In this document: in pieces, positions 3,282-39,592 of the stretch | How the letters are laid out: each line of letters starts with the position of its first letter | How positions within the stretch are numbered: position 1 is the stretch's first letter | DNA from: Clostridium thermobutyricum | Lineage (GTDB): Bacteria > Bacillota > Clostridia > Ch29 | Length of the DNA stretch: 39,693 nucleotides | Direction of reading: 5' to 3' | NCBI GenBank assembly: GCA_016842005.1 | Contig: JAENYD010000021.1 | Coordinates: 1 to 39,693 of the forward strand | The notes under the pieces: generated by a model | Seen by the model: only the letters and a program-made list of their open reading frames with translations | Database searches by the model: none | Told to the model about the DNA's origin: nothing | Position numbers and translations under genes: made by a program

Positions 3282-4586
3282 ATGGAACTTTTAGACAAAC
3301 TTAGAATTTTGGCTGATGCGGCAAAATACGACGTATCCTGCTCGTCAAGCGGCAGTCAAAAAAGAAATAAAAACAGAGGACTTGGTAATAGCTGTTACAG
3401 TGGTATCTGTCACAGTTGGGCGGATGACGGGAGATGTATTTCCCTTTTAAAAATCCTGTTTACCAATCACTGCATATATGACTGCGCTTACTGCATAAAC
3501 AGGGTTTCCAATGCCGTGCCCAGGGCAGCATTCACCCCCGATGAGCTTGTTGATATAACAATCAATTTTTATAAAAGAAACTATATTGAAGGGCTTTTCC
3601 TAAGCTCTGCAGTTCTGCGAAACCCCAACTACACGATGGAACTGATGCTTGATACGGTCAGAAAACTCAGGGAACGGGAGAATTTTAACGGATATATACA
3701 TCTTAAGGCCATTCCCGGTGCCGACAACCGTCTTATTGAGCAGGCCGGTAAATATGCGGACAGGATGAGTGTAAATATTGAGCTGCCTTCCGAGCGAGGT
3801 CTCAAACTACTGGCTCCTCAAAAGAAAAAGGAAGCAATAATCGGACCCATGAAATTTATCAGTTCTAGGATTATTGAAGGAATAGAGGATAAACGTAAAT
3901 TTAAAAAAGCTTTTGATTTCGTGCCGGCAGGGCAGACCACCCAGCTGATTGTCGGGGCCACCCCGGATAACGATTTAAACATTCTGAGACTTTCCGAAGC
4001 TTTATATAATCGTTTCAGGCTTAAAAGGGTTTATTATTCGGCTTATGTCCCCGTATCAAGCCATCCCAACCTTCCCAGTATTTCTGTTCCACCCCTTGTG
4101 AGAGAACACAGGCTCTACCAGGCCGACTGGCTTTTGAGATTTTACAGGTTCAATGCCTATGAACTGCTGGACGAAACCCACCAGAACTTTGATACAGACC
4201 TGGACCCCAAATGTGACTGGGCATTGAGAAACCTTCACCTGTTTCCCGTAGAGGTAAACTACGCTGATTATGAACTGCTGCTTCGTGTTCCGGGAATAGG
4301 GATACAATCAGCAAGACGGATAATTGCATCCCGGCGGTTTGGCTCTCTGGACTACACAGACCTGAGTAAGATGGGAATAGTTCTAAAGAGGACAAAGTAT
4401 TTTATAACCTGCAAAGGGAAATATTACGGAGGGATAAATATTAATGCCCATACCTTAAAAGAACGGCTGCTTGCAAAGGCTAAAAATTCCGGTGGTTTGA
4501 ATGCCGGCGAGCAGGTATCCCTGTTTTCCCTTTATCCGGATCTTCTGTCATCGGGCAAACAGGATTCTTGGCTGGGGGAGTTGTAA
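3282..4586 (+). CDS. Putative DNA modification/repair radical SAM protein (TIGR03916-type)
   Basis: This 434-aa radical SAM enzyme belongs to the family usually named 'putative DNA modification/repair radical SAM protein', which is encoded next to DUF4130 proteins (and, in other bacteria, linked to uracil-DNA glycosylase-like domains). CIYDCAYC at residues 64-71 is the CxxxCxxC motif that holds the [4Fe-4S] cluster cleaving S-adenosylmethionine. Residues about 330-352 (LLRVPGIGIQSARRII) form a helix-hairpin-helix DNA-binding motif. The start at 3282 was chosen because family members begin 'MxLLDKLxILADAAKYDVSC' and GGGGTGG precedes it; an in-frame ATG at 3204 lies upstream of the promoter. 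Its stop codon overlaps the next start by one base. The exact reaction is unknown. A LexA-box match covers the promoter. Confidence 0.9.
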   Translation: MELLDKLRILADAAKYDVSCSSSGSQKRNKNRGLGNSCYSGICHSWADDGRCISLLKILFTNHCIYDCAYCINRVSNAVPRAAFTPDELVDITINFYKRNYIEGLFLSSAVLRNPNYTMELMLDTVRKLRERENFNGYIHLKAIPGADNRLIEQAGKYADRMSVNIELPSERGLKLLAPQKKKEAIIGPMKFISSRIIEGIEDKRKFKKAFDFVPAGQTTQLIVGATPDNDLNILRLSEALYNRFRLKRVYYSAYVPVSSHPNLPSISVPPLVREHRLYQADWLLRFYRFNAYELLDETHQNFDTDLDPKCDWALRNLHLFPVEVNYADYELLLRVPGIGIQSARRIIASRRFGSLDYTDLSKMGIVLKRTKYFITCKGKYYGGININAHTLKERLLAKAKNSGGLNAGEQVSLFSLYPDLLSSGKQDSWLGEL

Positions 4587-33293: not shown

Positions 33294-33322
33294 TTGACAT
33301 TGAAAATTTTCTTTGTTATAAT
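33294..33322 (+). promoter_or_regulatory. Consensus sigma-A promoter of the selenoprotein operon
   Basis: TTGACA (33294-33299), 17-bp spacer, TATAAT (33317-33322). Both hexamers are perfect matches to consensus, predicting strong constitutive expression. Confidence 0.88.
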
Positions 33323-33373
33323 TTGTTTATGCCCCTTATAGGGGGGGTAGGTATATTACAGGGAGGGATGAAA

Positions 33374-33670
33374 ATGCAGATTAATCTAACCGACAGGGCA
33401 AAAGAAGAACTGGAAAAGATGCTTGAAAAAAGAGATAGCCAGGGAAAACCCTTGCGCCTGTATATAGCCGGCGTTGGCTGAGGAGGTCCTACATTCGGGC
33501 TGACTCTGGATGAGCCGGCAAAAGACGATACTGTAAAAGAGGTAAAAGGATTGACCTTTATAGTTGATCCAGGAATGGAGCAGAGGTACCCGGAAGTGAA
33601 TATCGAATACAAAGACGGGGTAATCTTCAAGGGCATCAGGATATCAGGCCCCGGAGTATCATCCTGTTAA
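33374..33670 (+). CDS. HesB-like selenoprotein (IscA-related) with in-frame UGA
   Basis: This 98-residue protein of the HesB/IscA-like family has codon 36 as TGA (33479-33481). The context is YIAGVG-U-GGPTFGLTLDEP; cysteine-containing homologues have AGVGCGGP there, so UGA most likely encodes selenocysteine. HesB-like proteins are a known selenoprotein family. The frame stays open to TAA at 33668-33670 and ends GPGVSSC, as homologues do. A possible SECIS stem GGCU (33498-33501) / AGCC (33513-33516) with an 11-nt loop beginning GA lies 16 nt after the UGA. The ATG at 33374 has GGGAGGG 6 nt upstream; an in-frame ATG at 33368 touches the Shine-Dalgarno. It probably acts in iron-sulfur or redox chemistry. 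Standard gene finders will split it. Confidence 0.9.
33497..33517 (+). promoter_or_regulatory. Candidate bacterial SECIS element
   Basis: A stem-loop within the coding sequence: GGCU / AGCC plus a flanking C-G pair with one bulge, and loop GACUCUGGAUG, starting 16 nt after the UGA. The distance and the guanine at the start of the apical loop suit the bacterial SECIS model, although the stem is short. Confidence 0.5.
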
Positions 33671-33693: not shown

Positions 33694-33918
33694 GTGAAGG
33701 ATGTAGTGGTCTACACAAGTGATACATGCGGTTACTGCCATGCGGTAAAGGACTATTTGAACAACAAAAATATTCCCTATACCGAAAAAAATATCTCCAA
33801 GGATATGGCAGCGAGAAGAGAACTGGTCAGCCAGGGATATATGGGAGTTCCGGTTATTATTGTAGGTGACCAGACAGTTGTAGGATTTGACAAGGAAAAG
33901 CTGGAACAGCTTCTATAA
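33694..33918 (+). CDS. Glutaredoxin family protein
   Basis: This 74-aa thioredoxin-fold protein has the redox motif TCGYC (residues 11-15), the cis-proline GVPVIIVGD and the C-terminal GFDKEKLEQLL helix. It is the small NrdH/glutaredoxin type. It starts with GTG preceded by AAGGAGGG. It follows the HesB-like selenoprotein by 23 bp and shares its promoter and terminator, suggesting that the pair works together in thiol/selenol redox or iron-sulfur handling. Confidence 0.9.
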   Translation: MKDVVVYTSDTCGYCHAVKDYLNNKNIPYTEKNISKDMAARRELVSQGYMGVPVIIVGDQTVVGFDKEKLEQLL

Positions 33919-33922
33919 CTGG

Positions 33923-33957
33923 AAAGAACCGCTGATTTTTCAGCGGTTCTTTGTTTT
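33923..33957 (+). terminator. Terminator of the selenoprotein-glutaredoxin operon
   Basis: A 13-bp perfect stem, AAAGAACCGCTGA (33923-33935) / TCAGCGGTTCTTT (33940-33952), with a TTTT loop, followed by GTTTT. Confidence 0.9.
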
Positions 33958-34066: not shown

Positions 34067-34300
34067 ATGACCAAACTCAGCAGATTAACCGTCAAAAAGG
34101 CAATGAGCTTTCTTTTTATTGCAATAATGCTTACTATTTTACTTAAATACAGCAATCAGATTGAAGAGCAGATGCCAAAAGACCTGCCGTCAAACCACCC
34201 CAAAGTGGAGCAGTACAGGAGTATACAAAACGGCATCAAAATTTCCGGTCTGCTTATAACCCTGGGCGGAATTATTTATGTCGTAAGGATGAAAAAATAG
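34067..34300 (+). CDS. Small two-helix membrane protein
   Basis: This 77-aa hypothetical protein has two predicted transmembrane helices (residues about 13-27 and 58-73) joined by a polar loop (NQIEEQMPKDLPSNHPKVEQY). AAGGAGG precedes the ATG at good spacing and a promoter lies upstream, so it is probably real. I do not recognise the family. It ends in a bidirectional terminator shared with the convergent MOSC gene. Confidence 0.65.
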   Translation: MTKLSRLTVKKAMSFLFIAIMLTILLKYSNQIEEQMPKDLPSNHPKVEQYRSIQNGIKISGLLITLGGIIYVVRMKK

Positions 34301-38188: not shown

Positions 38189-39415
38189 TTACAGCAGTAT
38201 TACCGCAACCTCTTCTTCCCTGTAAAGGCCTTCCTTATTCCTGTGTATCTTCACCATGCCTGCGGCAGAAGATATGGTGGTTATCATTCCTGATTTGCCG
38301 TGAACAGGAAAAGCATATAACCTGCCTTCCCTTTCCTCAAGGTTCACCATAAGATACTCCTCTCTCCCGGCGGCCGAAGCATAATTCTCGCTGCAAAATG
38401 CCTTGACCATAGCGGGATGTGCCGGTGGATAGCCGGCCAGTCTCCTGATAAGGGGTGAAACAATCACCTTATATACCACCAGGGAGGAAACCGGCTGTCC
38501 GGGCATACCTATTACGGGTTTGCCGTCAACCTTTCCTATTATGGTAGGTTTCCCCGGCTTGATGGATATGCCGTGGACCAAAACCCCCGGACTATCCAGC
38601 TCATCTATTATGGATGCGGTATAATCCCTGAACCCTGCTGAACTTCCCCCGGAAATCAGTACCACATCGCTTTCGGTTACGGCTGCGGAAATTTTTTCCC
38701 TCAATAAATCCTTCCTGTCTTTTACGATACCTTCGGGTACGGGACAGCCGCCGTCTTCGGCAACCGAAGACGCAAGGGCATAAGTGTTTATATCCCATAT
38801 CTGTCCGGGCTGCAGTTCCCCGCCAGGCTCCACAATCTCGTCTCCGGTGGATATGACAGACACCCTTGGTTTGGGGAATACTGTCACATCTTTCAAGCCT
38901 ATACTGCTCAATACTCCGATATGCTGCGGTCTTATCAACGTATTCTTCCTGACTACACAATCACCGGCTCTTACGTCTTCTCCCTTTCCCATGGTATTCT
39001 CCAGGGGACTTACCGGTTTATAAACGGCTATTTCGTTTTCATTCAGTCTTTCGGTATCCTCAATCATCACAGCGGCATCACCGCCCGGCGGAAGCATCCC
39101 TCCCGTAGGCACGTACATACATTCTCCGTCTCTGATGCCCCCCGGCGGTCTGCGCCCTATTTCTACCTCTCCGGAATATTTCAGTATGGCGGGCATTGCC
39201 TCATTTGCCCCAAAAGTATTCCGGGACCTGACGGCGTAGCCGTCGACAACCGAACGGTTAAAGGGAGGTATATCACAACCGGCGGCTACATCTTCAGCCA
39301 GCACCCGGCCTAAAGACTCCAGCAGGCTAATTCTTTCGGTTTTTTTACCGCCGGGGATAAAATTATTTTCTATTATGTCTAATACCTCATCAACATCTTT
39401 AACCTTTAAGAGCAT
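38189..39415 (-). CDS. moeA: Molybdopterin molybdenumtransferase
   Basis: This 408-aa protein inserts molybdate (or tungstate) into molybdopterin-AMP. Motifs are PFNRSVVDGYAVRS, PTGGMLPPGGDAAVMIEDTE, STGDEIVEPG, SGGSSAGFRDYTASIID and PGKPTIIGKVDGKPVIGMPGQPVSSLVV. I chose the ATG at 39415 because AGGAGG lies upstream and MLLKVKDVDEVL matches the family start. An in-frame ATG at 39460 would place the first 15 codons in the riboswitch terminator hairpin. It is the first gene of the cofactor operon. Confidence 0.95.
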   Translation of the reverse strand: MLLKVKDVDEVLDIIENNFIPGGKKTERISLLESLGRVLAEDVAAGCDIPPFNRSVVDGYAVRSRNTFGANEAMPAILKYSGEVEIGRRPPGGIRDGECMYVPTGGMLPPGGDAAVMIEDTERLNENEIAVYKPVSPLENTMGKGEDVRAGDCVVRKNTLIRPQHIGVLSSIGLKDVTVFPKPRVSVISTGDEIVEPGGELQPGQIWDINTYALASSVAEDGGCPVPEGIVKDRKDLLREKISAAVTESDVVLISGGSSAGFRDYTASIIDELDSPGVLVHGISIKPGKPTIIGKVDGKPVIGMPGQPVSSLVVYKVIVSPLIRRLAGYPPAHPAMVKAFCSENYASAAGREEYLMVNLEEREGRLYAFPVHGKSGMITTISSAAGMVKIHRNKEGLYREEEVAVILL

Positions 39416-39444
39416 TAACGGTCCTCCTGTCAAACAAATAAAAC

Positions 39445-39473
39445 AGCGGTATCCCTCCATGATGGATACCGCT
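39445..39473 (-). terminator. Intrinsic terminator of the Moco riboswitch
   Basis: A 10-bp perfect stem, AGCGGTATCC (39473-39464) / GGATACCGCT (39454-39445), followed on the minus strand by GTTTTATTTG, lies between the aptamer and the moeA Shine-Dalgarno. The sequence just 5' of it (TTATAGC) can pair instead with GCTATAA at the 3' end of the aptamer, a possible antiterminator. Confidence 0.8.
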
Positions 39474-39480
39474 ATAAAAT

Positions 39481-39587
39481 GCTAATTATAGCCCCTTTCC
39501 AGCATGGGAGGCATACCAGTTTCCTGATATACCCTGTCGGCCAGCCGTCATAGCTTCCCGTAGACGGTTTGGCTCGGAGCGCCTCTC
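39481..39587 (-). promoter_or_regulatory. Molybdenum cofactor (Moco) riboswitch
   Basis: The transcribed leader of the moeA operon has the Moco RNA layout: a closing P1 helix pairing GAGGC with GCCTC; the conserved-looking CUCCGAGCC segment; a P3-like hairpin CCGTC...GACGG; a 7-bp stem capped by a GNRA loop (CAG-GAAA-CUG); and GGAAAGGGGC at the 3' edge. The presence of a P3-like stem favours the Moco over the tungsten-cofactor variant. A terminator follows. Known Moco RNAs typically control molybdenum-cofactor synthesis, transport and molybdoenzyme genes, which fits. The assignment was made by eye without a covariance-model score. Confidence 0.8.
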
Positions 39588-39592
39588 TGATA

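Follow-up and report, generated by a model that had tools for sequence, protein, structure and literature searches.

Does the TGA that interrupts the HesB-like reading frame at 33374-33670 (+) mark a dead gene, or is it a codon for selenocysteine (Sec)? The window, the whole stretch of 39,693 nucleotides from Clostridium thermobutyricum that we analysed, holds at this position a frame of 98 amino acids whose codon 36 is its only in-frame TGA and which ends in an ordinary TAA stop. We conclude that it is almost certainly a real selenoprotein gene whose TGA is read as selenocysteine. A first reading made from the sequence alone had placed this TGA on the conserved Cys of the family and described family-like sequence up to a normal stop, and translation and alignment agree with it on both points. 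The UGA codon (33479-33481, +) falls in the stretch AGVG-U-GGP, which contains the motif UxGP, and aligns where HesB/IscA proteins have a conserved Cys, encoded by TGC or TGT in homologues that carry Cys at this position (Cys-forms). Together with the C-terminal C98, U36 is the sole Sec/Cys residue in the protein, and both columns are invariant in our alignments.

Family and structure searches, in which Sec was entered as Cys, assign the product to the A-type fold. The protein matches Pfam PF01521 (Fe-S_biosyn) above the cut-off, and its best NCBIfam model is TIGR01911 (HesB_rel_seleno). The window copy scores 58.4 bits with this model against a cut-off of 66.35, in contrast to the sibling proteins at loci L040 (69.9) and L041 (68.9), which pass it; the window protein shares with this family Sec at the conserved HesB Cys within UxGP and a length of about 98 residues. 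Its predicted structure (pLDDT 91) has IscA and SufA as top PDB matches in Foldseek, with a TM score of 0.78 to IscA 1s98. The C-terminal tail of the model has a pLDDT below 50, and the distance between Sec36 and Cys98 is therefore unreadable from it. A C-terminal CxC is a further feature of IscA-type carriers. The window protein shares with IscA, SufA and ErpA the fold, the aligned position of the first Cys and a PF01521 score above the cut-off, but it has Sec for that first Cys and a single C-terminal Cys for the CxC; the three-Cys ligand set of A-type carriers is absent from it, and it lies far below the IscA, SufA and ErpA equivalog cut-offs. Besides the window copy, no other HesB-domain gene was found in the genome.

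Catalogues from 2005-2006 already include HesB-like selenoproteins (PMC1242214, PMC1794560), and Sec-to-Cys events have been reported in the family (PMC1794560). The 2026 catalogue of prokaryotic selenoproteins lists a 'HesB-like protein' with the UxGP motif as experimentally verified (PMC13188914), and the HesB-like protein of Methanococcus maripaludis has been labelled with 75Se, a mutant in it still fixing nitrogen (PMC11097638). Since such proteins were thus already catalogued and verified by 75Se in M. maripaludis, the window gene is a further member of the established HesB-related selenoprotein family TIGR01911. The sequence-only reading was right to call it a selenoprotein, while leaving the established status of these proteins unsaid.

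The comparison with relatives carries much of the argument. Homologues were present in 12 genomes of the 99 relatives searched, and every intact one has exactly one in-frame TGA, except L021, a Cys-form without any. Scanning genome contigs with the single protein found no relatives, and a profile built from a 4-row alignment yielded 39 further loci; a plasmid search returned distant matches only, at 28-40% identity and mostly of the HesB/ErpA type. Among 54 distinct homologues, the aligned codon is TGA in 27 and TGC or TGT in 27, and TGA is kept there even in relatives with as little as 23-48% identity. Close relatives differ mainly at third codon positions of the + frame, on both sides of the TGA. 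Downstream of it, dN is 0.21 against a dS of 1.9 for L040 and L041, and 0.08 against 0.88 for L042 and L043; dS is saturated in the downstream comparisons of the window gene itself, so that dN well below dS applies only where dS can be estimated. Judged by these substitution patterns, the reading frame is under purifying selection in the relatives, before as well as after the TGA.

The earlier reading had also pointed to a stem-loop at SECIS distance. Such an element is present at 33499-33519 (+), with a stem of 4 bp, an A33503·C33515 mismatch and 3 bp, and a UGGAU loop (33507-33511) that starts 25 nt after the UGA; the range of SECIS distances is 16-37 nt. Taken by itself, the window's stem-loop, with its mismatch, is the weak spot of the argument and is not statistically special: the isolated fold of the region is unremarkable (z from -0.5 to +0.3), and an alternative hairpin is favoured in the intact strand, leaving the SECIS stem a probability of about 0.08. 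Because the isolated fold is not significant, we relied on comparative pair counts and on folding after ribosome clearance. With the 9-14 nt that follow the UGA removed, to mimic a ribosome standing on that codon, the SECIS stem becomes the minimum free energy fold, at -8.7 kcal/mol, and of 5000 synonymous recodings only 145 reach an equally good fold. In the 17 Sec-forms of the same type as the window gene, 93% of the pair cells are standard pairs and 12 show a compensatory change, giving a covariation score that none of 500 shuffles reached, whereas the same columns are only 49% paired in 22 Cys-forms. The case for a SECIS is carried by this comparison, in which the stem-loop of Sec-forms is conserved with compensatory changes, and by the ribosome-cleared fold. 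The stem-loop also agrees with the published description of bacterial SECIS elements, a stem downstream of the UGA with a G in a small apical loop (PMC1088965). Fusibacter-type Sec-forms have a different stem of 8 bp in a shifted register, 95% paired, with the loop GGUC or GGUU. At L049, around position 4100, a Cys-form still carries a stretch, CTCTGGATGAG, that resembles the SECIS of Sec-forms and is likely a fossil of a Sec-to-Cys change.

A search of the host genome for the sel genes, as the sequence-only reading had proposed, found selA (E 2e-161), selB immediately after it on the same contig, selD (E 2e-117) and, at 67.3 bits, a tRNA-Sec whose anticodon is UCA. With selA, selB, selD and tRNA-Sec all present, the objection that the host might lack Sec machinery fails; within the family, selA was found in 6 of 6 genomes searched. 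Two further host genes contain one in-frame TGA each, selD (at SGU) and the formate dehydrogenase alpha gene fdhA (in UHSP), and in both a hairpin follows the TGA. UHxP is a known formate dehydrogenase motif (PMC13188914).

The surroundings of the gene are those of an intact unit. Upstream, at 33294-33322 (+), lies a sigma-70 type promoter (TTGACA-17 nt-TATAAT, with the TG of an extended -10) that matches the consensus at 12 of 12 positions, as had been noticed from the sequence. The glutaredoxin proposed as a partner is likewise there, as an ORF of 74 amino acids with a GTG start (33694-33918, +) that begins 23 nt past the hesB stop. It is of the YruB/GlrX type with a CGYC active site, and it matches TIGR02196 at 90.3 bits (cut-off 88.55) and PF00462 with an E-value of 7e-18. 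It also scores with the models of Uxx-star/glutaredoxin-like selenoproteins (NF041212 and related), but it has Cys rather than Sec in its active site and is above the cut-off only for TIGR02196. A feature that the first reading did not mention closes the unit: a terminator-like hairpin at 33923-33952 (+), made of a perfect 13-bp inverted repeat with a 4-nt loop and followed by GTTTT, which a consensus terminator scan missed because the T run sits within the arm. From these sequence signals, promoter, hesB-like (Sec) gene, glutaredoxin gene and terminator form a predicted two-gene transcription unit.

The pairing recurs elsewhere. The two genes stand in the same order in L040 and L041, and the L040 pair is flanked, like that of the window, by rnf and moaC/moaA genes. 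A glutaredoxin also lies directly downstream of the Sec-form in L022, which belongs to a different family, and about 1 kb upstream of it in the Tissierellales loci L042, L043, L045 and L046; the sequence available on either side of the other loci (only about 1.5 kb for loci from the 99 relatives) showed no glutaredoxin. In the same-family genome G002, a hesB-like/glutaredoxin stretch (L020, contig C11, about 129269-129525) is broken and frame-disrupted, and the sequence that follows looks likewise disrupted, next to an intact moaC; the selA of this genome is intact, and the disruption reflects either decay or a low-quality assembly. Two other features of the window were recorded downstream. 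An ORF of 77 amino acids (34067-34300, +), which may contain a membrane helix and has no match in Pfam, lies between the glutaredoxin and a MOSC gene, and a molybdenum/tungsten cofactor riboswitch (RF01055, 68.7 bits; 39476-39591, -) sits upstream of a moeA-like gene (38189-39460, -).

TGA is one nucleotide away from TGC and TGT, and the locus could in principle be a pseudogene, in which a recent nonsense mutation of the Cys codon has knocked out a HesB gene. Gene loss does occur in the family, since the G002 copy of the hesB-glutaredoxin pair is broken. A recent inactivation is hard to reconcile, however, with 27 distinct homologues from many genera that have the same TGA codon, or with the SECIS and the selection acting beyond that codon, nor does it fit an intact promoter and terminator in a genome with Sec machinery. 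The sequence-only argument against a pseudogene is upheld on these grounds, and we regard such an origin as highly improbable. An error of sequencing or assembly for TGC or TGT, conceivable in a source assembly that is a draft of 55 contigs, is untenable because relatives share the TGA at the same codon in independent assemblies.

The remaining alternatives concern how the sequence is read, and we give either of them practically no chance. On the opposite strand, 33316-33636 is an uninterrupted ORF of 106 amino acids with an ATG start, which could be taken for the real gene. It matched no NCBIfam family, the promoter and the family match belong to the + frame, and it is mainly at third positions of that frame, on both sides of the TGA, that relatives differ; the earlier judgement that annotating this ORF would be a mistake was sound. 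Ordinary ORF calling would either cut the hesB-like gene at the TGA or put the spurious opposite-strand ORF in its place. Finally, the UGA might be read otherwise than as Sec, as Trp or Cys under an altered genetic code, or simply by readthrough. We found no evidence for this; the ordinary long genes of the window read under table 11, the TGA-bearing genes belong to the classic selenoprotein families SelD, FdhA and HesB-like, and a tRNA-Sec (UCA) is present.

Sec-forms and Cys-forms differ not only at the codon itself but also in their C-terminal tails. A single C-terminal Cys is found in 25 of 27 Sec-forms and a three-Cys tail in all 27 Cys-forms (Fisher p 4e-13, from counts that are not independent). 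The homologue tree, itself weak with its 95 columns and long branches, needs only 4 changes of the codon and 3 of the tail, and the independent pairs in it number 4 at most. Because so few changes are needed, and the counts are accordingly not independent, we treat the correlation as a lead only; in the papers searched, none connects this C-terminal pattern of Cys with HesB-like selenoproteins. Two Sec-forms, L014 and L016, have the three-Cys tail typical of Cys-forms and are possibly intermediates between the two types. HesB-like genes also occur in tandem (L056, L057, L059, L062, L063, L065, L068, L069, L070 and L072), each such locus pairing a Cys-form that has a three-Cys tail with a Sec-form that has a single C-terminal Cys. 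The occurrence of both forms in tandem in Fusibacter-type genomes suggests that they have different jobs.

Regarding the locus as a whole, we hold with high confidence, from comparative sequence evidence, that it is a two-gene unit in which UGA 36 would be decoded as Sec by SelB and tRNA-Sec, probably helped by the stem-loop just downstream within the coding sequence. The product would be an A-type (IscA/HesB) fold protein with Sec at the invariant ligand Cys position and an extra thiol at C98. For its function, we favour a role in which these two residues act together: Sec36 and Cys98 may form a selenenylsulfide redox pair that is reduced by the adjacent glutaredoxin, or, alternatively, they may bridge a dimer as ligands of a cluster or metal. 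The first of these options has a broader version, which we put forward tentatively and consider rather unlikely. The HesB-like Sec protein and the YruB-type glutaredoxin would be a dedicated redox couple, and Sec-forms would be enzymes of thiol-selenol redox chemistry and not carriers of Fe-S clusters, whereas Cys-forms would keep their three-Cys tail for metal or cluster binding. The tail difference fits such a functional split between Sec-forms and Cys-forms inside one family, and, together with the glutaredoxin neighbour, the contrast of single- and three-Cys tails gives the redox role proposed for Sec-forms a concrete shape that can be tested.
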